Program-made: the position numbers and the translations under genes
Assembly (NCBI GenBank): GCA_017458335.1
Contig: JAFTFT010000004.1
Span: 62,001 to 126,000, forward strand
Direction: 5' to 3'
From: Oscillospiraceae bacterium
GTDB taxonomy: Bacteria > Bacillota > Clostridia > Oscillospirales > Oscillospiraceae
Length of the DNA stretch: 64,000 nucleotides
Notes under the pieces: model-generated
Told to the model about the DNA's origin: nothing
What the model saw: only the letters and a program-made list of their open reading frames with translations
Databases searched by the model: none
Part shown: piece by piece, positions 6,708 through 64,000 of the stretch
Layout of the letters: each line of letters begins with the position of its first letter
Numbering within the stretch: position 1 is the stretch's first letter

Positions 6708-8585
6708 ATGGAGAACAAAGGACAATATATCAGCACCACGGAAGCCGCAAAACGCCTGCATGTGACAGGACGCCGGGTGACTGGACTCTGTAATGAGGGA
6801 AAACTGGAAGGGGCAGTTCGGAACGGAAGGAATTGGAAGATCCCCACTCAGGCACTTCAGAACTATATGTTGAGAGAGGGAATATCCCCTTATGAAGTTG
6901 AGCATGAGCAGGAAGCGGAGCTTCTCCCCTGTGCTGTCGGTAATACCTCATATATAGAGATATCCAGTGAATGCTATTATGTGGATAAGACGCTTCTGAT
7001 CCGTGACCTGATCGACGACCACAACATGGTCACGCTTTTTACACGCCCTCGCCGTTTTGGAAAAACACTGGCGATTAACATGCTCAAGACATTTTTTGAG
7101 AAGACAGAAGCGGATACCTCACGATACTTTACGGGGAAGAAAATCTGGCAGTGCGGTGAGAAATACCGCTCACAGCAGGGCGCATATCCGGTCATTACGC
7201 TTACGTTCAAAGATGTGAAATTCCAAAACTGGGCGGAATCAATCGAAGCGATCCGGCTGGTCATGAAAGATGAATACAAACGTCACAGCGAGCTGAAACA
7301 GAGCGCTGCACTGGAACCGGATGCAAAAGATTATATGGCGCGTTTGGAGAAGGGAGAGCTGAGCGATGTAGAACTCAGCCGCGCCCTGTTGAACCTGACC
7401 GGAATGCTTTCCAAGCATTATCAGTCCAGGGTGGTGATCCTGATTGACGAATATGACACGCCGATTCAACAGGGATACGCGAAAGGCTTTTACCAGGAGG
7501 CCATTTCTTTTATGAGAAACTTCCTGTCGGGTGGACTGAAAGACAACACCGAGCTTGCTTTCGGTGTACTTACCGGGATTTTGCGGATATCAAAAGAGAA
7601 TCTGTTCAGTGGATTGAACAATCCAATGGTAAATACCGTGCTGGACAGAAAATACAGCGAATACTTTGGCTTTACGGAAGAAGAAGTGAAGGCGATGGCA
7701 AAATATTACCATCGGGAAGAGGCCATGGATGAAATTCGGAACTGGTATGACGGATACCGCTTCGGAAACACGGAAATCTATAATCCGTGGTCGGTCACGA
7801 ACTATTTTGCTTCCGGATGCCAGGCCAGACCATACTGGGCAAATACCAGCGACAATGAGATCATCCGCGAGATGCTGACTCAGTTGACACCAGAGACCGC
7901 ACAGGAGCTGACCGCGGTTATGCAGGGGGCGGCAATTCCATCGTCGCTGGATCTGGAAGTCATCTATCCCCGGATGCCGGATGGGAGCGACACAATTTTC
8001 AGCTTTCTGCTGTTGGCTGGATATCTGACGCCGGCCACAGTTCCCGAGGAGACGGAAATCGGAACGTTTGCCGAACTGCGCCTGCCGAATTCGGAAGTTC
8101 GAAGAATCTATAACACGGAGATATTAAGCTGGATCAAAACCGGTTCAAACAGCGGCGTGATAGCCGAGATCGAAAAAGCGGTTTACCTCAATGACGGAGA
8201 ACGACTGCAGCGGGCAATCAGAAACTATATGCTGACCACAATCTCAAGCTTTGACGGAGCGGCAGAAGGGTTTTATCACGGGATGGTACTTGGTCTGGTT
8301 GCGAGCCTCTCTTCCAAGTTTCTCATCCGCTCCAACAGAGAAGCGGGGGAAGGAAGATTTGACCTGAGCCTGGAGCCGAAAGATCAGAAGCTCCCCGGAA
8401 TCATCATGGAGTTCAAAGCGGTACCCGCATCGGAAAAGGCGTCGCTCGCTGACCTTGCCGAGGAAGCATTGAGTCAGATTGAGGACAAAGCGTACTTCAC
8501 GGATATGAAGGATCGTGGAGTTTCTGAGATCGTGAAATACGGAATTGCATTTGCCGGCAAAAGAGTAGAAGTGAAAACAGCGTGA
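6708..8585 (+). CDS. HTH-AAA ATPase-PD-(D/E)XK nuclease-like fusion protein
   Basis: A 625-residue protein with three parts. Residues 1-55 are an excisionase/MerR-type helix-turn-helix (STTEAAKRLHVTGRRVTGLC, then NGRNWKIPTQAL). Residues about 80-400 are the AAA-ATPase-like domain PF09820, with Walker A RPRRFGKT at 113-120 and Walker B-like ILIDEYDTPI near 243-252. The C-terminal 150 residues are the PD-(D/E)XK-like domain usually joined to it (GRFDLSL near 548, then MEFKA near 566). The family is very common in gut Clostridia and Bacteroidia and is uncharacterised; defence or mobile-element functions have been suggested. The fused HTH plus repeated sites upstream point to autoregulation. ATG 6708 follows GGAGGGCTGCGCG. 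Confidence 0.85.
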   Translation: MENKGQYISTTEAAKRLHVTGRRVTGLCNEGKLEGAVRNGRNWKIPTQALQNYMLREGISPYEVEHEQEAELLPCAVGNTSYIEISSECYYVDKTLLIRDLIDDHNMVTLFTRPRRFGKTLAINMLKTFFEKTEADTSRYFTGKKIWQCGEKYRSQQGAYPVITLTFKDVKFQNWAESIEAIRLVMKDEYKRHSELKQSAALEPDAKDYMARLEKGELSDVELSRALLNLTGMLSKHYQSRVVILIDEYDTPIQQGYAKGFYQEAISFMRNFLSGGLKDNTELAFGVLTGILRISKENLFSGLNNPMVNTVLDRKYSEYFGFTEEEVKAMAKYYHREEAMDEIRNWYDGYRFGNTEIYNPWSVTNYFASGCQARPYWANTSDNEIIREMLTQLTPETAQELTAVMQGAAIPSSLDLEVIYPRMPDGSDTIFSFLLLAGYLTPATVPEETEIGTFAELRLPNSEVRRIYNTEILSWIKTGSNSGVIAEIEKAVYLNDGERLQRAIRNYMLTTISSFDGAAEGFYHGMVLGLVASLSSKFLIRSNREAGEGRFDLSLEPKDQKLPGIIMEFKAVPASEKASLADLAEEALSQIEDKAYFTDMKDRGVSEIVKYGIAFAGKRVEVKTA

Positions 8586-8682
8586 GAAAAGATGCGGAGG
8601 CATAACAGGACTATATGTGCCTCTGAACCGAGCTGTTCCGCTTTATTATGACGTATCCTACGGAAATAACCTTCACTTTCGA

Positions 8683-8711
8683 TTGTGTTTTCCACAGGAC
8701 GATGCTATAAT
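8683..8711 (+). promoter_or_regulatory. Promoter of the DJ-1/PfpI gene
   Basis: TTGTGT (8683-8688), a 17-base spacer and TATAAT (8706-8711). The gene start is 44 bases downstream. Confidence 0.65.
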
Positions 8712-8754
8712 GCAATCAGCCAAACCAACAAATATTTGAAGGAGGTTGTTTCTT

Positions 8755-9333
8755 ATGGCAAAAAAGGTACTGCTTCTTTGCGGCGATTTCACAGAGGACT
8801 ATGAAACCATGGTGCCGTTCCAGGCGCTGGGCGTGCTGGGGTATCAGGTGGATGCGGTCTGCCCGGACAAGAAGGCGGGCGAGACGGTCGCCACGGCGGT
8901 TCATGACTTCCTGGGCGAGCAGACGTACACCGAGCTCCGCGGTCACAACTTCGCCCTGACGGCGGACTTTGACGCGGTGAAGACCGAGGACTATGAAGGC
9001 CTCTTCATCACCGGCGGCCGTGCCCCCGAGTATATCCGCCTGAACGCGAGAGTCCTGGAGATCGTCCGCGAGTTCTTTGCCGCCGGAAAGCCGGTGGCGG
9101 CCATCTGCCACGGCCCGCAGGTCCTTGCGGCGGCGGGCGTGCTGGCCGGTTACAGGGCCACGGCCTATCCCGCGGTGGGCCCGGACGTGACGCTGGCCGG
9201 CGGCACCTATGTCCCCGTGGATGTGTCGGAAGCCGTTGTGGACCGCAATCTGGTCACGGCTCCGGCCTGGCCCGGCGACACCGCCATCGTCCGTGAGTTC
9301 GCGAAACTCATGGGCGCGAAGATCGAGATCTGA
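8755..9333 (+). CDS. DJ-1/PfpI family protein
   Basis: A cytoplasmic 192-residue protein of the class I glutamine-amidotransferase-like superfamily (deglycase, protease or chaperone activities are known in the family). The nucleophile cysteine is in [16 protein letters not shown] near residue 118, and the preceding [14 protein letters not shown] is the usual PfpI signature. ATG 8755 is chosen because GGAGG lies 9 bases upstream; a TTG nine bases earlier is inside that ribosome site. It is a single-gene unit with its own promoter, closed by the large hairpin at 9403. The substrate is not predictable. Confidence 0.88.
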
Positions 9334-9402
9334 TCCGGGGACAGACGGCAAAGCAGATCAGCATATAAGCTGTTTCACGGAATTGATTGCCCGCCAAGGT
9401 AT

Positions 9403-9445
9403 TACCGGTAAAACTCCCCGCCTCCGGCGGGGAGTTTTACCGGTA
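9403..9445. terminator. Perfect 20-base-pair hairpin between convergent genes
   Basis: The arms 9403-9422 and 9426-9445 are exact reverse complements (left arm begins TACCGGTAAAACTCCCC) with a 3-base loop TCC. Read either way, a G+C-rich core is followed by a TTTT-containing stretch within the arm. It lies between the DJ-1 gene and the convergent membrane-protein gene, so a bidirectional terminator is likely; the unusual length and perfection also allow a small mobile palindrome. Confidence 0.7.
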
Positions 9446-9517
9446 CTGAATATCGTGAAAAGAAAAAAGCAGGAAGACAGACCTTGTATCTGCCTTCCTG
9501 TTTTTACGGTTATGCGC

Positions 9518-10306
9518 CTAGCGCAGCCTGCGAAGACGCTGATCTGTGAACGCGGCGATCTGGGTCCAGAGCCGCAGCAGCTGGTTCTTATGGGCACAGA
9601 GCTTCTCAGAGCAGTTTTTACAGCCGAGATAGCCGTTGGTCGCCTCGGAAAAACGTTCGGGATACCTGTAGAAAGTGATCTCCCAGCGGGCCAGCAGGGC
9701 CACGGACAGCACCAGCAGGCTCCAGGTGTAGGACTTTCGCACAAAGAAGAGCGGTGTGAACATCATGGCGTAGTCCCAGTTATAGATCCGGCAGGTACAG
9801 CAGCATTTGTTCTTCAGAAACCAGCTCTGGAAGGGGCAGAAGAACAGAATGCAGATCATGTCGCAGACCGAATAGGCGAGGCACAGAAGAATCATGATGC
9901 CGTCGTCCAGAATACCGGACATGTGCAGCGCGCCGAAAACGGCATTGAAGGCGATCCAGATCAGGGCCACCAGCACCACGCCGTTGTTGTCCTGAATGTC
10001 GATGTTCGTCCTGCCGGTCTTGACATAGTTCCGGGCAAACTGCTTCTGACATCCAGGACTCTCCAGACGGGAGGGGAAGAAGCGCAGAATCATCTCCACC
10101 GTGAAAACAACCCAGATGAGACTGAGAATCAGGGGACGGCTCTCCAGCACGGCGGAGATCTCCGGGCCGCCGCTCAGACGGCAGGAGAGATACATCCACA
10201 GGAACGCGAGAAACAGCGCGGAACGGTAGACCAGACGAAAATAGTGAAAACTGCTGACCGCGGTCAACTTTGGCTTATGGTGCGGTTGATGAGAAACTTT
10301 TTGCAA
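9518..10306 (-). CDS. Uncharacterised membrane protein with cysteine clusters
   Basis: I do not recognise a named family. The protein of about 262 residues has roughly six hydrophobic segments (for example SALFLAFLWMYLSC, ILSLIWVVFTVEMIL, NGVVLVALIWIAFNAVFG, ILLCLAYSVCDMICILFF, SWSLLVLSVALLA-like). Cysteines cluster in KNKCCCTCRIYNWD after the fourth segment and CKNCSEKLCAHK near the C-terminus, which could bind metal. The start is probably TTG 10306, with AAGGGG eight bases upstream; an earlier TTG at 10363 overlaps the lipoprotein gene. It is the last gene of the operon monooxygenase-lipoprotein-membrane protein. Confidence 0.6.
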   Translation of the reverse strand: MQKVSHQPHHKPKLTAVSSFHYFRLVYRSALFLAFLWMYLSCRLSGGPEISAVLESRPLILSLIWVVFTVEMILRFFPSRLESPGCQKQFARNYVKTGRTNIDIQDNNGVVLVALIWIAFNAVFGALHMSGILDDGIMILLCLAYSVCDMICILFFCPFQSWFLKNKCCCTCRIYNWDYAMMFTPLFFVRKSYTWSLLVLSVALLARWEITFYRYPERFSEATNGYLGCKNCSEKLCAHKNQLLRLWTQIAAFTDQRLRRLR

Positions 10307-52974: not shown

Positions 52975-53931
52975 TTACTTCAGATACTGTTTGTCGTAGT
53001 TGCCCTGGATGGCCTTGACCATGACGGTGAGCAGGTCGTTGACCGGCGTGGGAATGCCGAACTGCTTTCCATACTCGGAGAGCTTGCCGTTCAGGACTTC
53101 GATCTCAGTCTGACGGTGGTTGATGAGCATATCCTGGGCCATGGAGGGATAGTAGTCGCCCATGTTGTCGATGAAGTTCTTCAGGTGGGTGTTTTCAAAC
53201 TCCACGGGGTCAAAGGGAACGCCCTTTGCCGTGGCGATGGCGCAGGCTTCGCGCACGACGCCGCGGAAGAGCTCCATGCCGTAGGGATCTTCGGCAACCT
53301 CGAAGATCTTCAGACGAAGCAGCGCGCAGACGGTGTTGACGGTGCAGTTGATGATGACCTTCTTCCAGATGTTGGGGCGGTCATCTTCGTTGAACTCGGC
53401 ACGGCAGCCGCCCTTGGTGAAGACCTCGGCCAGGTGCTTTCCGGCCTTGTCGGTGACGGGGCCGTTCTCCAGTGCGCCGAAGTGGACCAGCGTGCCCTCC
53501 ACCTCGGTGGAAACGCAGCAGCCGGGCTCCTTCAGCTGGGTGCCCAGAGCCCCGGAGCCGCAGAGAATGCGGTTGGCCGGGAAGTGCCGAAGCAGGATGT
53601 CGTCATTGCCGAGACCGTTAATGAGGGAAACGAGAACCGTGTCCGGTCCGATGCAGGGCATCGCGCTCTGGACGGCGTTCTCCAGCTGGGTGGCCTTGGT
53701 GACGAAGATCACGATGTCCATGATGCCGATGTCATCGGCGGTGTAGGCGGTCTTGAAGCCGTCGAGATGGTAATGGGTATCGGGATAGACGATGAACTCC
53801 AGGCCGTCCTTCGCGACCTTGTCCATGTGGGCCTGATAGCGGTCCACCAGGGTGATGTCCGCGCCGCCCTTGCGCAGGTATCCGGCGAAGCAGCTTCCGG
53901 CTGCGCCGCAGCCGATCATGGCGATTTTCAT
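52975..53931 (-). CDS. Ketopantoate-reductase-like oxidoreductase
   Basis: The 318-residue NAD(P)H-dependent enzyme of the ApbA/PanE family has the nucleotide-binding MKIAMIGCGAAGSCFAGYLR at the N-terminus, VIFVTKATQLENAV (the conserved Lys) and WKKVIINCTVNTVCALL. PanE reduces 2-ketopantoate, but many members act on other 2-keto or 2-hydroxy acids. Here it is the last gene of an operon with a split transketolase and an IlvD-type dehydratase, so a catabolic 2-hydroxy-acid role is more likely than pantothenate synthesis. ATG 53931 is chosen: GGAGG lies ten bases upstream, whereas TTG 53937 is too near. Confidence 0.85.
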   Translation of the reverse strand: MKIAMIGCGAAGSCFAGYLRKGGADITLVDRYQAHMDKVAKDGLEFIVYPDTHYHLDGFKTAYTADDIGIMDIVIFVTKATQLENAVQSAMPCIGPDTVLVSLINGLGNDDILLRHFPANRILCGSGALGTQLKEPGCCVSTEVEGTLVHFGALENGPVTDKAGKHLAEVFTKGGCRAEFNEDDRPNIWKKVIINCTVNTVCALLRLKIFEVAEDPYGMELFRGVVREACAIATAKGVPFDPVEFENTHLKNFIDNMGDYYPSMAQDMLINHRQTEIEVLNGKLSEYGKQFGIPTPVNDLLTVMVKAIQGNYDKQYLK

Positions 53932-53957
53932 GTTCAATATTCCTCCTTAATAATGTT

Positions 53958-55652
<1,695 letters not shown>

Positions 55653-55741: not shown

Positions 55742-56677
55742 TTACTTGCGCGCGTCCTTCGCGGTCGCGACGATGTCGGCGACGGAGAGACCGTAGGCGT
55801 CGAGAAGCTCGGCTGCCTTTCCGCTGCGCGGATACTTGTCATGCAGTGCGACGCGGAGCACACGGCAGGGATTCAGACGGCAGGCAACCTCACAGATCGC
55901 GTCGCCGAGACCGCCGTAGATGTTGTGGTCCTCGACCGTGACGGCGCAGCCGCAGCGGGCCAGAACGGCCGCGACACCCTCGTCATCCATGGGCTTGATG
56001 GTGGAGACATCCACCAGCGTGCCGCTCACGCCGTCGGCATGCAGCTGATCGAGCGCGGCGATGGCGCGGTCCATGATGAAGCCGGAAGCAAAAATGGCCA
56101 CATCATTGCCGTAGGACTTGACCTCGCGGACCTTGCCGAAGGTGAAGGGCGTGCCGTCGGGGAAGACTTCGGGCTCACGGCCGGAACCGAGACGCAGATA
56201 GCAGGGACCGTCGACTTCCATCATGGCCTTCGCGGCATAGTAAGCCTGCTGGCCGTCGGCCGGGGTCAGGATCTTGACGCCGGGCATGCTGCGCAGAATA
56301 CCGACGTCCTCATAGAACTGATGGGTGACGCCCTCGCGCTCGCCGCCCAGCATGCCGCCGTTGAGGCCGATGAGCTTGACGTTCAGGCCGGGATAGGCGA
56401 TAAAGGTGCGGATCATCTCGCAGGCGCGCATGGTCAGGAAGCCGGCATAGGAGACCACGATCGGCTTCATCCCGGTGGTGGCGAGACCCGCGGCAATATC
56501 CACGGCATCCTGCTCGGCAATACCGACCTCGATCACGCGGTCGGGAAACTCCTCACGAAACTTTGTCGCACGGGCGGCGGCAACGGCGTCGGGGGAGACG
56601 ATCACGATTTTTTCATCTTCGCGGGCCAGCTCCTGGATGGCCAGCATCGCAGCTTCTCTGGTAGATTTCAAAGCCAT
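55742..56677 (-). CDS. Transketolase, C-terminal subunit
   Basis: The 311-residue protein contains the pyrimidine-binding and C-terminal domains of a transketolase: RVIEVGIAEQDAVDIAAGLA (catalytic Glu), KPIVVSYAGFLTMRACEMIR, and GVTHQFYEDVGILRSMPGVK, then a C domain with VTVEDHNIYGGLGDAICEVA. It needs the N-terminal subunit encoded 14 bases upstream to make an active thiamine-dependent enzyme. Such two-gene transketolases occur in specialised sugar pathways in bacteria, besides the ordinary single-chain enzyme. Confidence 0.92.
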   Translation of the reverse strand: MALKSTREAAMLAIQELAREDEKIVIVSPDAVAAARATKFREEFPDRVIEVGIAEQDAVDIAAGLATTGMKPIVVSYAGFLTMRACEMIRTFIAYPGLNVKLIGLNGGMLGGEREGVTHQFYEDVGILRSMPGVKILTPADGQQAYYAAKAMMEVDGPCYLRLGSGREPEVFPDGTPFTFGKVREVKSYGNDVAIFASGFIMDRAIAALDQLHADGVSGTLVDVSTIKPMDDEGVAAVLARCGCAVTVEDHNIYGGLGDAICEVACRLNPCRVLRVALHDKYPRSGKAAELLDAYGLSVADIVATAKDARK

Positions 56678-56691
56678 TTTTCTTCCTCCCC

Positions 56692-57510
56692 TCAGATCTT
56701 GTCCTTGAGCGCTTCACGCGCGATCTCGACTTCTTCGTCGGTGGGCACTCTCTTGTGCCAGGCGTTGTTGTCTTCCATATAAGGAATGTTCTTGCCCTTG
56801 ACGGTCTTGCAGGCGATCAGGGACGGCTTGTCGGTGACTTTCTTCGCTTCGGCGATGGCGGCCTGAATCTGGGCAATGTCGTGGCCGTCGATCTCCTGAA
56901 CGTGCCAGTGGAAAGCGTTCCACTTGTCGGCAACCGGGTACAGGCTCGAGAGCTCGGTGACCTTGCCGCCGGACTGATGGTTGTTCAGATCCGCGAAGAC
57001 GATGAGGTTGCCGGCCTTGAACTTGGCGGCAGCCATGGCGGCTTCCCAGATGATGCCCTCTTCCTCTTCGCCGTCGCCGACGATGGCATAGACGTAGTTT
57101 TCAATGCCCTGCATCCGGCAGCCCATGGCCATGCCGAGACCGATGGCCACGCCGTTGCCGAGAGAACCGGAGACCGTGTCGACACCGGGGATTTTATTCA
57201 TATCGGGGTGACCCTGCAGGAAGGAACCCAGAGAACGCAGGCCCTTCAGTTCCTCCAGCGGGAAGTAGCCCTTGCGCGCAAGCGCGGCATAAAGAATCGG
57301 GCAGGCGTGCCCTTTGGAAAGCACAAAGCGGTCGCGCTCAGGCCAGCGGGGATTGGCCGGGTCAAGCTTCATTTCTTCAAAAAACAGAACAGCCATGATA
57401 TCCGCGATCGACATACAGGGACCGGGATGGCCGTCACCTGCATCATGAACCGTTTCCACCACATCCAGACGAAGACGGTTGGCAATGCGGGAGAGTTCAT
57501 CAACAGTCAT
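56692..57510 (-). CDS. Transketolase, N-terminal subunit
   Basis: The 272-residue protein contains the thiamine-pyrophosphate-binding domain: VHDAGDGHPGPCMSIADIMA, LSKGHACPILYAALARKGYF and the GDG...N metal and pyrophosphate motif in VGDGEEEEGIIWEAAMAAAK followed by FADLNNHQSGG. It is the first gene of the four-gene minus operon. Its promoter and operator at 57538-57586 lie just upstream. ATG 57510 follows GGAGG. Confidence 0.92.
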   Translation of the reverse strand: MTVDELSRIANRLRLDVVETVHDAGDGHPGPCMSIADIMAVLFFEEMKLDPANPRWPERDRFVLSKGHACPILYAALARKGYFPLEELKGLRSLGSFLQGHPDMNKIPGVDTVSGSLGNGVAIGLGMAMGCRMQGIENYVYAIVGDGEEEEGIIWEAAMAAAKFKAGNLIVFADLNNHQSGGKVTELSSLYPVADKWNAFHWHVQEIDGHDIAQIQAAIAEAKKVTDKPSLIACKTVKGKNIPYMEDNNAWHKRVPTDEEVEIAREALKDKI

Positions 57511-57537
57511 TGGGGATGCACCTCCGAAAAATTTAAT

Positions 57538-57551
57538 ATCCTATGTAGGAT
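57538..57551. promoter_or_regulatory. FadR/GntR-type operator, transketolase operon
   Basis: ATCCTATGTAGGAT is a perfect 14-base palindrome covering the predicted transcription start. The 18-base string TCCTATGTAGGATGTTTA (57539-57556) recurs exactly at 58623-58640. Binding would block initiation of the transketolase operon. Confidence 0.75.
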
Positions 57552-57557
57552 GTTTAA

Positions 57558-57586
57558 ATTCTAACGACTTCCGATGATTTTGTAAA
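57558..57586 (-). promoter_or_regulatory. Promoter of the transketolase operon
   Basis: On the minus strand TTTACA (57586-57581), a 17-base spacer and TAGAAT (57563-57558). The operator begins 7 bases downstream. Confidence 0.7.
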
Positions 57587-57722
57587 GAGTTTTTATCGTA
57601 GAAACTGAGATTTCGTCGCTTTGCCTATTTTGAATGACAAAAAATGTGCAAATTCACGAAAGCATCCAAGTTTCCGGCCCGGACATGGGAAAAGAAGGGC
57701 TTGGTCGAAAGAGAGAAAAGGC

Positions 57723-57752
57723 TTGACAGTCCGCTGTACAAGCAAGTATTAT
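57723..57752 (+). promoter_or_regulatory. Promoter of the FadR-type regulator gene
   Basis: TTGACA (57723-57728), an 18-base spacer and TATTAT (57747-57752). No copy of the TCCTATGTAGGA operator is present here, so autoregulation by the same site is not indicated. Confidence 0.65.
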
Positions 57753-57808
57753 GATAGATATTCTTATATCCTTCAAAAAATCGTAATACAGGAACAGGCA
57801 GGCACGAT

Positions 57809-58534
57809 ATGGACAGCAACGAACTTGAATTCCCCGTGATCCGCAGCACCTCGGTGGTGGATTCTGTAAAGGACTGGATCACCGATCAGATGATCAAGGG
57901 CAATCTGCGCCCGGGCAGCAAGCTCCCCACGGAGGCGGAACTGAGCCAGCGCCTCGGCGTGGGGCGCAACAGTGTCCGCGAGGCCATCAAGCAGATGGAA
58001 GCCTACGGCGTACTCTATATCAAACGGGCGGAAGGAACCTTTGTCGCAGAACAGTTCGATCCGAAAATGCTCTCGCCCATTTTCTACAGCATCATTCTGC
58101 AGAATGCCAGCTGGCAGGACTTCGTCGACCTGCGCCGCGCCATCGACATCGGGACCCTCTATGTCCTGATCGGTCGGGAACCGAAAAAAGAGGAACTGGG
58201 ACGCCTCAGTGCGGCACTCCAGAACCTCGAAAAAGCGGTCAGCGCCAAAAAACTGGACGTGCAGAAGATTACGGAGGCGGACTGCATCTTCCACAACGAG
58301 ATCATCAGCCTCACCAAGAACCCCCAGCTGAAGACACTGTCGGAGTATATTAACCGCATCACGGTCCCCAGCCGGGAGAAGACCACGGAGATCGTCATCG
58401 CCAACGGCGAGATCGACAAGTATGTCCATCTGCACCGGGAGCTGTATCAGATCGTCCGTGACGGAAAACGGGAGGCCATCGAGCAGGCGGTGCTGAACCA
58501 CTATGTGTTCTGGGAGAAGACGAACCAGGTGTGA
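57809..58534 (+). CDS. FadR-subfamily GntR transcriptional regulator
   Basis: The 241-residue protein has a winged HTH at about residues 10-78 (VVDSVKDWITDQMIKGNLRP, then LGVGRNSVREAIKQMEAYGV) and an all-helical FCD effector domain (DFVDLRRAIDIGTLYVLIG, then ADCIFHNEIISLTKNPQLK and HRELYQIVRDGKREAIEQAV) with the Asp/His residues that usually hold a metal. It is encoded between two divergent operons that carry an identical palindrome at their predicted start sites. It is therefore the likely repressor of both, released by a pathway acid. Confidence 0.92.
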   Translation: MDSNELEFPVIRSTSVVDSVKDWITDQMIKGNLRPGSKLPTEAELSQRLGVGRNSVREAIKQMEAYGVLYIKRAEGTFVAEQFDPKMLSPIFYSIILQNASWQDFVDLRRAIDIGTLYVLIGREPKKEELGRLSAALQNLEKAVSAKKLDVQKITEADCIFHNEIISLTKNPQLKTLSEYINRITVPSREKTTEIVIANGEIDKYVHLHRELYQIVRDGKREAIEQAVLNHYVFWEKTNQV

Positions 58535-58584
58535 TTTGGTAAATATGCTCAAAAAACAGGCCGGAATATTGTCAAAAGATACAA

Positions 58585-58613
58585 TTTACTTTTGTTCGTT
58601 ATAGTGTTAACAT
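58585..58613 (+). promoter_or_regulatory. Promoter of the racemase-TRAP operon
   Basis: TTTACT (58585-58590), a 17-base spacer and TAACAT (58608-58613). The operator starts 10 bases downstream, a layout parallel to the transketolase promoter. Confidence 0.5.
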
Positions 58614-58622
58614 GAAATAAAG

Positions 58623-58640
58623 TCCTATGTAGGATGTTTA
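58623..58640. promoter_or_regulatory. FadR/GntR-type operator, racemase-TRAP operon
   Basis: TCCTATGTAGGATGTTTA is identical to 57539-57556; the core TCCTATGTAGGA is a perfect palindrome. It lies about 80 bases before the racemase-like gene. Confidence 0.75.
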
Positions 58641-58719: not shown

Positions 58720-59391
58720 ATGAAAGTCGGATTGATTTATACCAGCACCACACCCGAGCTGATCGCCGATGTGGAACGCGAAGTGAAGAAGCAGCTGGGC
58801 GAGGATGTAGAGATGTTCTCCCTGCAGGATCCGAGCATTCTTGCGGATGTCCGCGCAGCGGGCTATGTGACCGCGGCTCCTGCCGCCCGTCTGATCGGCA
58901 TGTATATGAAGGCCGTGGAAGAGGGCGTGGACGCCATGCTGAACCTCTGCTCTTCCGTGGGTGAAGTGGCGGACTGCGTACAGGATGCGGCGAAGTATCT
59001 CGGCGTTCCCATCGTCCGCGTGGATGAGGAGATGTGCCGCGAGGCCGTCCGGCTCGGAAAGCGCGTCGGCGTGATGGCAACCCTCCCGACGACCCTGACC
59101 CCGACCAAGAACACGGTCGCCCGTGTGGCCCGCGAGATGGGGGCTCATGTGGAGCTGGTGGACTGCCTGGTGGACGGGGCCTTCGGTCTGGATCAGGAAC
59201 AGTTTAAAAAGCGCCTCACCGATGCGGCGGCGGACATCATCGACCAGGTCGATGTCGTTGTTCTTGCACAGGGCAGCATGGCCTATGCCGAAGAGCATCT
59301 GCGCAGCGTGTACGGCAAGCCCTTCCTCGGAAGCCCCAGATTCGGCGCCGCGGAGCTCAAGAAGGCCCTGCAGGCCAAGGGCGTCATCTGA
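58720..59391 (+). CDS. Asp/Glu/hydantoin-racemase-like protein
   Basis: The 223-residue protein belongs to the Asp/Glu racemase superfamily: MKVGLIYTSTTPELIADVER, AMLNLCSSVGEVADCVQDAA (first catalytic Cys) and VGVMATLPTTLTPTKNTVAR. In the second half the usual Cys in VVLAxG is Gln (VVVLAQGSMAYAE), so a two-base racemase mechanism is unlikely. Relatives with one Cys include decarboxylases and isomerases of dicarboxylic acids. It is first in an operon with a TRAP transporter and is therefore probably the first enzyme acting on the imported acid. ATG 58720 has only a weak ribosome site (ACGAGG). Confidence 0.8.
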   Translation: MKVGLIYTSTTPELIADVEREVKKQLGEDVEMFSLQDPSILADVRAAGYVTAAPAARLIGMYMKAVEEGVDAMLNLCSSVGEVADCVQDAAKYLGVPIVRVDEEMCREAVRLGKRVGVMATLPTTLTPTKNTVARVAREMGAHVELVDCLVDGAFGLDQEQFKKRLTDAAADIIDQVDVVVLAQGSMAYAEEHLRSVYGKPFLGSPRFGAAELKKALQAKGVI

Positions 59392-59473: not shown

Positions 59474-60478
59474 ATGAAGAAGATCCTCGCACTCGTCATG
59501 GCCCTGACCATGATCTTCGCTCTGACCGCTGTCAGCGCGAGCGCGGACGACGCCATCGTCCTGAAGATCGGTGTTTCCACCGCGGATACCGACCCGCGCA
59601 ACATCGCAGCCAATGACTTCGCAAAAGAAATCGAAGAGAAGACCAACGGCGCCGTCAAGGCGGAAGTTTATCCCTCCGGCCAGCTCGGCGGCGACGGCCA
59701 GCTCGTTGAGTCCCTGGCGGTCAACGACGGTACGGTTGACATCGTCATCACCGACGCGTCCAACTTCGGCACCATCGTTCCCGACATGAACATCTCCGGC
59801 CTGCCCTTCCTGTTTGCGGACTTTGACGCTGCCTTTGCCTTCATGGAAGGTGAGATCGAAGCTGCCGCCGAGGCAGAGCTTCTTGAGCTCACCGATGTCC
59901 ACGTCCTGACCCACTATTCCAACGGCTTCCGCTGCGTCACCAACTCCAAGGGACCGGTCGAGACCCCCGCTGACATGAAGGGCATGCTCATCCGTACCCC
60001 GGAGAACCAGGTCATCATGGCCACCATGTCCGCTCTGGGCGCCAACCCCCAGCCTCTGGCCTTCTCCGAGCTCTATCAGGCTCTGCAGCAGAAGACCTAT
60101 GACGCACAGGAGAACCCCATCCCCATCATCTACAACAACAAGCTCTATGAAGTTCAGGAGTACCTCTCCGTCACCAACCACATCTACTCCGGCCTCTGCT
60201 TCGCCATTTCCGGCAGCGCGTGGGACAGCCTGACTGCCGAGCAGCAGGAGATCGTCGCCGCCGCGGCGCAGTCCTCCGGCGAGTGGCAGAGCGAGACCAT
60301 CCGCCAGCAGACGGACGACCTGGTTGCCAACCTCGAAGAAGAGGGCATGAAGGTCAACTTCCCCGACCTGGCTCCGTTTGCCGAAGCCACCAAGTCTGTC
60401 ATCGAAGAGAATGCCCTGGGCATCTCCGAAGACCTGCTGACCGCTCTGGCTGCCCAGACTGAGGAAGCCGCCGCATAA
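59474..60478 (+). CDS. dctP: TRAP transporter substrate-binding protein DctP
   Basis: The 334-residue precursor has a signal peptide (KKILALVMALTMIFALTAVS, cleavage near ASA-DD) and the DctP fold: KIGVSTADTDPRNIAANDFA, EVYPSGQLGGDGQLVESLAV (carboxylate-binding region) and FRCVTNSKGPVETPADMKGM with Arg and Lys that bind an acid group. It captures a small organic acid outside the cell for the DctQM permease. The gene has unusually biased codon use, as expected for an abundant binding protein. A hairpin follows it at 60502. No clear lipobox is seen, so anchoring in the Gram-positive envelope is unclear. Confidence 0.92.
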   Translation: MKKILALVMALTMIFALTAVSASADDAIVLKIGVSTADTDPRNIAANDFAKEIEEKTNGAVKAEVYPSGQLGGDGQLVESLAVNDGTVDIVITDASNFGTIVPDMNISGLPFLFADFDAAFAFMEGEIEAAAEAELLELTDVHVLTHYSNGFRCVTNSKGPVETPADMKGMLIRTPENQVIMATMSALGANPQPLAFSELYQALQQKTYDAQENPIPIIYNNKLYEVQEYLSVTNHIYSGLCFAISGSAWDSLTAEQQEIVAAAAQSSGEWQSETIRQQTDDLVANLEEEGMKVNFPDLAPFAEATKSVIEENALGISEDLLTALAAQTEEAAA

Positions 60479-60593: not shown

Positions 60594-61124
60594 ATGCGTA
60601 AGAAACTATATGATGTGCTGAAAGTCATCCAGACATGGATCGACCGGATCACGACAGGCGTTGCCTCCGTGCTGATCGGCGTCATGTTCGTGGTGATTAT
60701 CGCCAATGTCATTCTTCGCGGAATCCCCGCGGTCGGAGGCTTCCGCTGGTATATGGAATTCAGCCAGTACGCCAACGTCTGGGCGATGCTGATTGCCGCC
60801 GCGGGTATTGCCGTGCAGTGCACGAACCTGCGTGTGGAAGCGGTGGATTCCATTATGAAAAAGATTCCCGGTGGAAATAAGCTCTCCAAGGTGATCATCG
60901 ATGTGGCGCTGATTCTGTTCTATGTTTCCATGTTCGTCAGCGGAAAGACCTTCGCCAGGAAGTCCATGATTATCAAGGTTTCCACCATGCCATCCTTCAA
61001 GATGGGGCAGGTTTACCAGATCTTTCCCTGGGCTGCGGCGCTCTGCATTGCTGCCGGCCTGATTCATCTTCTGATCACCCTGCTTGAGAAAGAAGAATAC
61101 CTCGAGGAGGTGAAGGAATCATGA
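60594..61124 (+). CDS. dctQ: TRAP transporter small permease DctQ
   Basis: The 176-residue membrane protein has four hydrophobic segments (TGVASVLIGVMFVVIIANVI, YANVWAMLIAAAGIAVQCTN, VIIDVALILFYVSMFVSGKT, IFPWAAALCIAAGLIHLLIT), the DctQ pattern. It forms the permease with DctM. The last codon overlaps the dctM start (ATGA). Confidence 0.9.
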   Translation: MRKKLYDVLKVIQTWIDRITTGVASVLIGVMFVVIIANVILRGIPAVGGFRWYMEFSQYANVWAMLIAAAGIAVQCTNLRVEAVDSIMKKIPGGNKLSKVIIDVALILFYVSMFVSGKTFARKSMIIKVSTMPSFKMGQVYQIFPWAAALCIAAGLIHLLITLLEKEEYLEEVKES

Positions 61125-62404
61125 GTATGGTCGCGTGGCTTCTGATCAGCTTTGCGGTCCTGATGTTCCTCGGCGTTCCCATCGGCATCTCGCTTGGCCT
61201 CTCCGCCGTGGGCGGCATGCTCTTTATCAACAACAGCACGGATCTCATGACCATCACCAAGCGCATGTTCGAGGGCATGAACAGCTGGGCGCTGCTGGCG
61301 ATTCCTCTCTACACCTTCGCGGGCTACACCATGTCCAAGGGCGGCATTTCTTCCCGTTTGATGGACTTCTGCTATGCCATCGTGGGCCACATCTACGGCG
61401 GCCTGGCGCATGTGAACGTCCTGGCCTCGATGATCTTCGCCGGCATCTCCGGCTCCGCGGTCGCGGATACCGCGGGTGTCTCCGGCATGTTCATGCCGAC
61501 GATGATCAAGAAGGGCTATTCCAAGGAACTGACGGTCACGGTCACGGGCGTGTCCTCCACCGTCGGCATCATTATCCCGCCCTCCATCCCGATGGTCGTC
61601 ATCGCCGGCATCTGCTCGATCTCCACCGGCAAGATGTTCCTCGGCGGCATCATCCCCGGCATCCTGATCGGCCTGAGCCAGATGATCATCTCCTACATCT
61701 TCGCAAAGAAGGAAAAGGTTCAGCCGGAACCCGGCCACTTCCAGATGAGCGAAGTCTGGCGTACCTTCAAGGGCAGCTGGCCTGCCCTGCTGATGCCGGT
61801 CATCATCATCGGCACCATCACCGCAGGAATCGTCTCCCCGACCGAAGCGGGCGCCATCGCCGTTGTCTACGGCCTGATCTGCGGCGGCCTTGTCTACCGT
61901 GAGCTCAAATGGGCGGACCTGAAGTTCTGCTTCACCGAAACCGTCCGCGTCTCTGCGCGTATCTTCGTTGTCATCGGCTGCGCCAAGCTCTACACCATCA
62001 TGCTCACCACGGCCGGCTTCGACAAGTGGCTCACCGGAGCCATGCTGGGCGTCAGCACCAACCCCACGGTTATCCTGCTGATGATCCTGCTGCTGTTCTT
62101 CATCGTGACGATGTTCATGGAATCCATCGCGGCCCTGACCCTGTTTATGCCCATCATTTTCCCGATCGCCATGTCCGTCGGCATCGACCCGATCGTCCTC
62201 GGCGTTCTGGTCACGGTCATGATCGGCGTCGGCCTTGTGACGCCGCCGGTCGGCATGTGCATCTATGTCGCCTGCGACATCATGAAGATCACCGTCGGCA
62301 GCACGCTGAAGTATCTGTTGTGGTACATTCTGGGCACCTTTGTGGTTATCGGTATCCTGATCGCCTTCCCGCAGCTGATCACGGCGCTGGGCGCCTTCGT
62401 TTGA
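61121..62404 (+). CDS. dctM: TRAP transporter large permease DctM
   Basis: The 427-residue protein has about 12 hydrophobic segments and the DctM signatures: MLFINNSTDLMTITKRMFEG, AGISGSAVADTAGVSGMFMP, IIIPPSIPMVVIAGICSIST, and IVSPTEAGAIAVVYGLICGG. It carries the sodium-coupled transport path of the TRAP system. It is followed by a terminator at 62454. Confidence 0.94.
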   Translation: MSMVAWLLISFAVLMFLGVPIGISLGLSAVGGMLFINNSTDLMTITKRMFEGMNSWALLAIPLYTFAGYTMSKGGISSRLMDFCYAIVGHIYGGLAHVNVLASMIFAGISGSAVADTAGVSGMFMPTMIKKGYSKELTVTVTGVSSTVGIIIPPSIPMVVIAGICSISTGKMFLGGIIPGILIGLSQMIISYIFAKKEKVQPEPGHFQMSEVWRTFKGSWPALLMPVIIIGTITAGIVSPTEAGAIAVVYGLICGGLVYRELKWADLKFCFTETVRVSARIFVVIGCAKLYTIMLTTAGFDKWLTGAMLGVSTNPTVILLMILLLFFIVTMFMESIAALTLFMPIIFPIAMSVGIDPIVLGVLVTVMIGVGLVTPPVGMCIYVACDIMKITVGSTLKYLLWYILGTFVVIGILIAFPQLITALGAFV

Positions 62405-63332: not shown

Positions 63333-64000
63333 ATGCAGTTTGAAAAGATCCAGAACAACGGACCGAAGGTTCCCGAGCTCGTCATGGACAGCCTGCTGAA
63401 GGCGATGGAAGCCGGGACCATCCGGGTGGGAGAAGAGCTGCCTCCGGAGAGGGACCTGGCAGAGGCTCTTGGCATCTCCCGCAATTCCCTGCGAGAGTGC
63501 CTCGCGATCATGAGCTTCATGGGAATCGTGGAGAACCGGGGTAACCGCAAGATCCTGGTGAAGAACGCGGACCGCTTCCGGAAAGCCCGGTCGCTGATTG
63601 ACCTCTCCTATTCCCGGGACACCTTTGAAGATTTCATGGAATTCCGCCGGACCAACGAGAGAGAAATCGCCCGGCTTGCCTGCATCCGGGCAACCGAAGA
63701 GGACCTGGAGCGGCTCCGCAACTCGGTGGAGCGTCTGGAAGCGGACGCGACGGACTTCGAGGCGGATGTGGACTTCCACGTCAATCTGGCCTATGCCAGC
63801 CACAACACGATCTTCGCCGCGATGCTGAACTACGTCAACAGCCTGATCCTGGAGCTGCGCATGCGCTTCTTTGAGCGGGAGGAGTACCACGGCAAGACCG
63901 CGGAAGCCCACCGTCGCATCTATGAAGCGGTAAAAGCCAGGGATGAGGAACTGGCCGTGTACGAGATGGGCAGACATCTGAAGATCATCGAGAATTACGA
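63333..64000 (+). CDS. FadR-subfamily GntR regulator, 3' end cut by window edge
   Basis: About 222 codons are present with no stop before the edge. The HTH is at residues 10-75 (VPELVMDSLLKAMEAGTIRV, then LGISRNSLRECLAIMSFMGI) and the FCD domain follows (DFMEFRRTNEREIARLACIR, then DFEADVDFHVNLAYASHNTI). It resembles the regulator at 57809 in family but not closely in sequence. It probably controls genes to the right of the window. The ribosome site GGAGAGAACGAT precedes ATG 63333. Confidence 0.92.
   Translation, partial: MQFEKIQNNGPKVPELVMDSLLKAMEAGTIRVGEELPPERDLAEALGISRNSLRECLAIMSFMGIVENRGNRKILVKNADRFRKARSLIDLSYSRDTFEDFMEFRRTNEREIARLACIRATEEDLERLRNSVERLEADATDFEADVDFHVNLAYASHNTIFAAMLNYVNSLILELRMRFFEREEYHGKTAEAHRRIYEAVKARDEELAVYEMGRHLKIIENY

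Follow-up and report, generated by a model that had tools for sequence, protein, structure and literature searches.

A putative AYRT-box operator associated with a FadR-type regulator and three operons for transketolase and TRAP transport in an Oscillospiraceae genome

The locus and its repeated element

The window, a stretch of 64,000 nucleotides from an Oscillospiraceae bacterium (contig JAFTFT010000004.1), carries the gene of a GntR-FCD regulator between two divergent operons. Pfam searches bear out the gene content given in an earlier note on this DNA, namely a transketolase-dehydratase-reductase operon, a FadR-type gene and a racemase-TRAP operon. The features are listed below; the promoter hexamers were recognised by eye.

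52975..53937, - strand: ApbA/PanE-type reductase (PF02558, PF08546)
53958..55652, - strand: IlvD/EDD-type dehydratase (PF00920; exceeds the cut-off of ilvD TIGR00110)
55742..56677, - strand: transketolase C-terminal half (PF02779, PF02780)
56692..57510, - strand: transketolase N-terminal half (tktN), first gene of its operon (PF00456)
57535..57554, + strand: putative transketolase-operon operator AATATCCTATGTAGGATGTT, that is A[ATAT]CCT[ATGT]AGG[ATGT]T; best matrix match, 23.7 bits
57586-57581 and 57563-57558, - strand: transketolase-operon promoter, -35 TTTACA and -10 TAGAAT, 17-bp spacer
57809..58534, + strand: FadR-subfamily (GntR-FCD) regulator (PF00392, PF07729, both above cut-off)
58585-58590 and 58608-58613, + strand: racemase-TRAP promoter, -35 TTTACT and -10 TAACAT, 17-bp spacer
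58619..58638, + strand: putative racemase-TRAP operator AAAGTCCTATGTAGGATGTT, that is A[AAGT]CCT[ATGT]AGG[ATGT]T, with a first box that deviates from AYRT; matrix 16.1 bits on the + strand, 17.7 on the - strand
58720..59391, + strand: Asp/Glu-racemase-family protein, first gene of the second operon (PF01177)
59474..60478, + strand: TRAP solute-binding protein DctP (PF03480)
60594..61124, + strand: TRAP small permease DctQ (PF04290)
61121..62404, + strand: TRAP large permease DctM (PF06808)

The 18-base sequence TCCTATGTAGGATGTTTA was indeed found at 57539-57556 and 58623-58640. Both copies are on the + strand and are therefore oppositely oriented relative to their operons, and the window holds no further exact copy. 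Matches with up to two mismatches remained at chance level (five in the window, shuffle mean 2.5, with at least five in 16 of 100 shuffles). The core had been described as a perfect palindrome, which is true of the arms TCCTA/TAGGA but not of the central TG, which is not self-complementary. The proposed promoters of the form TTTAC[AT]-17-T[AN]NNAT can be read as TTTACA-17-TAGAAT on the - strand and TTTACT-17-TAACAT on the + strand, and the 12-bp core is separated from the -10 hexamer by 7 bp and 9 bp, respectively, in agreement with the 7-10 bases claimed.

The regulator contains a GntR winged-helix domain (PF00392, 61.8 bits against a cut-off of 27) and an FCD domain (PF07729, 48.4 bits against 24.3). 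Its residues D158, H162, H209 and H231 fit the spacing of what we take to be the metal ligands in the FCD domain of LldR. The best solved relatives by sequence are LldR/CGL2915 of Corynebacterium (PDB 2di3), PdhR (5kvr) and 7c7e, and by profile 7c7e, 6az6 and 2di3; similarity to LldR, PdhR and 7c7e is low (best E 2e-12), and the likeness is known here from the protein sequence only.

The site in the whole genome

In the organism's own genome (2.95 Mb in 44 contigs, 84% complete), the 12-mer TCCTATGTAGGA has three exact copies, all on the same contig and each ahead of an operon. A genome-wide motif search was a check named beforehand, and with three operon-linked copies in 2.95 Mb the exact motif is not scattered. 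Copies with up to two mismatches are background, at 90 compared with 139 for a reversed control pattern.

The third exact copy lies 18 kb beyond the window and ends 42 bp upstream of a second dctP gene (dctP2). It is preceded by TTTACT-17-TAACAT, and all three own sites stand behind TTTAC[AT]-17-TANNAT. The racemase and third-site promoter regions share 73% identity across 73 bp (E 4e-4). The genes 3' of the third site encode DctP-DctQ-DctM, a zinc alcohol dehydrogenase and a second DctP and DctM, followed by E1 alpha/beta, E2, an RpiB-like isomerase and a 2-hydroxyacid dehydrogenase. Its membership of the regulon is supported by one genome of the genus (G262), in which close homologues of its DctP and DctM have their own site next to the regulator. 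In that genome, homologues of DctP2 (80%) and DctM2 (87%), with a 37% identical alcohol dehydrogenase in front, adjoin the regulator behind a site, and further sites precede tkt and the racemase gene. The earlier proposal of two operons in one regulon is thus supported as to the linkage and wrong as to the number, which is at least three, the third being a second TRAP operon.

All seven one-mismatch copies in the own genome were viewed with their flanks and none was adopted as a site. One (L013) overlaps an AGGAGG shortly upstream of an ATG, and those in L012 and L016 belong to a single stretch common to both, at contig ends. This stretch, of at least 115 bases with TCCTATGCAGGA, is the same at L012:107 and in L016 (start of contig C1 and end of contig C27) and is likely a repeat that broke the assembly.

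Several further features were observed in the neighbourhood. A second FadR-type gene (63333-63998), whose product has the usual contact Arg, leads another island (L009:1033-10849) with DctQ-DctM-DctP, E1 alpha, E1 beta, E2, E3 and a gene that by eye resembles alcohol dehydrogenases. No place in this island scores above 8.4 bits with the operator matrix described below. Its E2 (L009:6657-8003) and E3 (8019-9728) share an identical start of about 70 residues, an apparent copy of the lipoyl domain to judge by the sequence. The catabolic island is broken up at L009:11057-14972, between the second and the third cluster, by genes that look methyltransferase- or restriction-like and HNH-like by eye and by a transposase gene (DDE_Tnp_1_6). 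Finally, a lipoate ligase gene (L009:16835-17854) is divergent from the operon behind the third site, whose products include a lipoyl E2, and may share control with it.

Site architecture in relatives of the regulator

Relatives were collected by scanning genome contigs with an alignment built from the regulator and five relatives (31-37%); at least 595 stretches matched and the best 80 loci were kept. The best relative (L036, from MAG RUG13855) has a 69% identical regulator, flanked on either side by genes in the same order. The exact 12-mer is found there before the transketolase operon, behind TTTACA-17-TAATAT, and the two-mismatch form TACTATGTTGGA before the racemase gene, behind TTTACA-17-TACCAT. 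Among the best 80 loci, the exact TCCTANNTAGGA was found in L036 only, and none of the seven loci of 26-37% relatives in the first family sample had it with up to one arm mismatch. We first read this rarity as non-conservation and reversed that reading because of a looser search for boxes. The pattern TCCTAYRTAGGA occurred in four of 40 genomes (the own genome, 24 of the genus and 15 of the order), namely the own genome and three with a TATATA centre.

The intergenic DNA of 55 loci (the window part and L036-L089, 54 of the best 80 relatives' loci) was counted for 7168 palindrome seeds with 5-base arms and spacers of 0-6. The top seed is TATGT-N3-ACATA, in 19 loci where 3.0 are expected; TCCTA-N2-TAGGA ranks third, in 11 of 55 loci where 1.25 are expected. 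Many of the aligned instances show four-base boxes with three bases between them, for example [ACAT]CCT[ACGT]AGT[ATGT] in L043 and L049, [ACAT]ACT[ATGT]TGG[ACAT] in L048 and, with five boxes, [ACAT]AGG[ATGT]AGT[ACGT]AAT[ACAT]ACT[ATGT] in L039. Some fit imperfectly: the first box is AAGT in two own sites and ATAA in L042, and the third is ACAA in L045. AYRT boxes were then counted at pitches of 4-15 in 86 kb of intergenic DNA from 53 loci, with the window and L036 excluded. At pitch 7 there were 27 triples in 18 of the 53 loci (mean 0.9 and maximum 4 in 30 shuffles), and four boxes in a row occurred seven times in six loci, against 0.1 in shuffles. The next-best pitches for triples were 5 (seven sites) and 14 (six sites). 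The whole loci L090-L115 gave eight triples at pitch 7 and 0-3 at other pitches. Some triples are mere AT-rich runs (L058).

As a separate observation, Halobacillus and Lentibacillus (L091:7846 and L093:6663) have near-perfect and perfect 18-bp palindromes of the layout [ACAT]CAT[AYGT]ATG[ATGT] about 150 bp upstream of distant FadR relatives.

From these sequence comparisons the element is probably a run of AYRT boxes at a 7-bp pitch that exceeds 12 bp, of which the 12-bp palindrome probably forms merely the middle. The identification as an operator is supported, and its description as a palindrome is corrected to that of a box run. We consider it unlikely that the operator is a plain 12-bp palindrome for one dimer, with outer boxes and pitch that are incidental. 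Such a palindrome would account for the perfect arms at all three own sites and for the third rank that its seed reached without prior knowledge. The top seed, however, is another sequence, the conserved stretch around the site spans 20 bp, and pitch 7 is prominent for three as well as four boxes, with pitches 5 and 14 mildly raised. Moreover, the symmetry axis falls within a box, contrary to the FadR-subfamily consensus TKGT-N2-3-ACMA given in the portions of the motif survey used here (Suvorova et al. 2015, PMC4494728), which the 12-bp palindrome does not fit.

Conservation of the box run was examined upstream of the racemase gene. A tblastn search with the own proteins over L036-L064 (29 of the best 80 loci) found the racemase in 11. 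L037 was dropped since its racemase starts at the contig edge, which left ten loci with upstream DNA, or 11 with the window. In leave-one-out scoring, the assigned site was the best in 11 of 11 regions and was reached by none of 1000 shuffles in each; the sites had originally been chosen by eye. The other check named beforehand, that the motif be kept in relatives that keep the locus, was thus borne out, in exact or related form, in all 11 racemase upstream regions. A matrix was built from nine distant relatives, excluding the window and L036 sites. Its three highest-scoring places in 122 kb were the own sites (23.7, 18.4 and 17.7 bits); the next separate one scored 8.4 bits. Between 57565 and the start of the regulator gene, no place exceeded 4 bits, which gives no sign of autoregulation there. 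The corresponding sequence-only model (R1), run on the whole own genome, had only one match up to E 10. This was the transketolase site (E 0.19), and the other two own sites were not among the matches up to that limit.

The box run resembles FadR-subfamily operators, as far as the survey portions describe them (PMC4494728), in its four-base boxes with three bases between, hence a 7-bp pitch, and in boxes 2 and 3, which are here mostly GT-N3-A[CT] (GT-N3-AC at the third own site and both L036 sites, GT-N3-AT at both window sites). Weaker extra boxes 7-12 nt from site centres are also reported there. It differs in the three to five boxes of many relatives, the axis through a box, the CCT/AGG between boxes in the window sites and the lack of Arg28 in the regulator. 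Aligned by eye with the DNA-contact residues of E. coli FadR in Table 1 of PMC4494728, the regulator has A43 for R35, G52 for T44, R53 for R45, N54 for T46, S55 for T47, R57 for R49, R73 for H65 and A74 for G66. Arg28 and Gly59, according to the survey the commonest but not strictly defining residues of the subfamily, are thus replaced by Ala43 and Ala74. None of 54 relatives (L036-L089 of the best 80 loci) has Arg at position 28, which lies outside both fetch patterns. By a simple pattern, position 59 is Ala, Pro or Ser in 49 of the 54 and Gly in four, a count that is biased because one of the two fetch patterns requires Ala, Pro or Ser there. In the survey, Arg28 and Gly59 go with a G/C pair at box positions 6/14, which we take as the second base of the box, and avoid A/T. 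An A/T pair stands there in ACAT boxes and in ATGT boxes, the kind used by the window sites; the ACGT boxes that are common in relatives carry C rather than T, so that the contact argument is partial. At the level of sequence, contact residues and box bases are partially consistent, which is not proof.

Site and regulator across the genus, and a proposed mechanism

A search of 102 genomes of the genus (E up to 1e-40) found the regulator at 68% identity or more in four (G000, the own genome, and G189, G244 and G262) and at 35-39% in four others. The exact 12-mer stands ahead of tktN in all four close-regulator genomes and in one of the 98 others (G212), and no genome besides these five contains it. 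Its total over the 102 genomes, eight, equals that of the reversed control, and the pure count was rejected as evidence. Although the raw count is not enriched, seven of the eight copies lie just upstream of tktN, the racemase gene or dctP2, and the signal is therefore one of position. Conservation on both sides of the regulator was confirmed in the three other close-regulator genomes, each with flanking sites. L036 and G244 look like the same species from their identical printed stretches, and we therefore counted them once. The regulator match in G244 (L122, contig C7) contains one TGA, whereas the frame is open in the look-alike L036. The full racemase gene of G189 (L160:7358-8026) has a partial copy in front of it (L160:6766-7092).

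TktN is present at 89-99% identity in eight genomes, with promoter and operator in five and no operator in three. All five loci with the operator before tktN, the own one included, have TTTACA-17-TANNAT. In the three genomes that lack the operator (G246, G173 and G169), no close regulator was found. G246 has a 28% regulator and no operator in 14 kb, and its tkt, ilvD and apbA, 93-99% identical, are linked to a different TRAP set. In G173 and G169, which have tkt-racemase-TRAP operons, 12 and 14 kb, respectively, contained neither regulator nor operator. Leaving G212 apart, this co-occurrence indicates that the site follows the regulator and not the enzymes. In G212 the exact 12-mer occurs twice, once before tktN and once at L131:411 (contig C4), between two open frames unrelated to the regulon. 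The contig runs on past the operator for approximately 760 bp to its end, and neither this stretch nor, at E 1e-40, the genome as a whole gave a regulator match; the regulator is thus not at its usual place there, and it may lie in missing sequence. As a side observation, the tkt-ilvD-apbA cassette of G246 (L155, contig C9) is accompanied by a different TRAP set and a different FadR-type gene, which looks like an exchange of the cassette between transporters and regulators.

Around the 35-39% genus regulators, the matrix gave 14.2 and 16.6 bits in two short loci and 8.3 in one, and no place above 6 bits in the fourth. A second model (R2), built from 11 lineage sites, returned 11 places at E <0.3 in the 102 genomes, all within the five genomes with the 12-mer ahead of tktN; as it was trained on the sites it recovers, these positives are circular and only its negatives are informative. 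No fourth place in the own genome passed E 3, under stricter filters that lose weak matches.

Taken together, the repeat is very probably a conserved operator. Our preferred reading, to which we give a probability of roughly 0.8, is that it serves as operator to the FadR-type regulator whose gene lies between the operons, and that dimers of this regulator on AYRT boxes would block RNA polymerase. It is quite improbable that the boxes are bound by another FCD regulator, such as the product of the FadR-type gene at 63333, and that the adjacent regulator has its targets in other places. In favour of this reading, nine FCD genes are present in the own genome, the 63333 gene is located between the second and the third site, and the site occurs in G212, where no close copy of the adjacent regulator was found. 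Over the 102 genomes, however, G212 apart, the site goes with the adjacent regulator. L036 keeps both sites, yet the frame after its DctM appears helicase-like by eye and is not the 63333 gene (16.7 kb seen), and the product of the 63333 gene retains Arg at the contact position (PPERD). That the element is a structure in the transcribed 5' leader or a start-site sequence, as its position at or just past the expected start in most loci read would allow, is highly improbable, since its distance from the -10 hexamer varies (7, 9, 11 and 17 bp), the L049 boxes lie between TTGACA and TATAAT-like hexamers (by eye) and the element is absent before 89-90% identical tktN genes where no close regulator was found. 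A 2-nt loop cannot close a TCCTA/TAGGA hairpin, and an RNA hairpin was rejected for this reason and because the L049 site is upstream of the expected start.

Under the operator reading, dimers of the adjacent regulator would bind directly to the run of AYRT-like boxes that overlaps the expected starts of the transketolase-dehydratase-reductase operon, the racemase-TRAP operon and the distant second TRAP operon. The bound regulator would then block RNA polymerase. Repression is favoured over activation by the placement of the site, which in most loci read extends over the bases expected to be transcribed first and in L049 over the promoter spacer. FadR-subfamily regulators bind ligands such as carboxylic acids (PMC4494728), and here a carboxylate imported by the TRAP system, or its product, may bind the FCD domain and release the regulator, so that uptake and breakdown would be switched on together. 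We speculate that the substrate is a branched hydroxy or sugar acid, which would suit an IlvD-type dehydratase and a PanE-type reductase.

A comparable system is NanR of E. coli, in the aspects covered by the parts of PMC8012715 used here. NanR is a FadR-type repressor with a (GGTATA)3 operator on which three dimers are in close contact; its binding is weakened by the sugar acid whose use it controls, and its cooperativity requires a 32-residue N-terminal extension. The present system is similar in combining a FadR-type regulator, presumably also a repressor, with a run of repeated boxes. In contrast to NanR, it has AYRT-like boxes at a 7-bp pitch and no GGTATA repeats, and its helix-turn-helix match starts at residue 18, the long N-terminal extension being missing. 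Three boxes might be shared through overlapping two-box positions or through an extra dimer docked as in NanR (PMC8012715). In the literature searched, we found no apparent report of this operator, matches to the motif string being judged in part and by titles and the starts of abstracts, and no paper on multi-box FadR operators or on the pathway.

More tentatively, and at less than even odds, the regulator may represent a widespread FadR-subfamily lineage with a modular operator, an AYRT ladder at a 7-bp pitch that can be extended from three to five boxes. Loci of this lineage are titled Clostridia, Selenomonadales/Sporomusa and Treponema. If this is true, the number and orientation of boxes would set the dimer count and the tightness with which TRAP and transketolase genes are shut off, and a tunable NanR-like assembly would have been reached with different protein parts. 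The ladder would provide a natural series of three, four and five boxes for the study of GntR dimer assembly on DNA.

Overall, our data provide a testable operator and three target operons for an uncharacterised regulator lineage present in many anaerobe genomes. This lineage appears hardly represented in the FadR motif survey, whose first column, which we read as that of FadR, has one Clostridia regulator in the portion used here (PMC4494728). Moreover, two TRAP systems, a split transketolase, a dehydratase and a reductase would be joined in one pathway, which narrows the search for its substrate.
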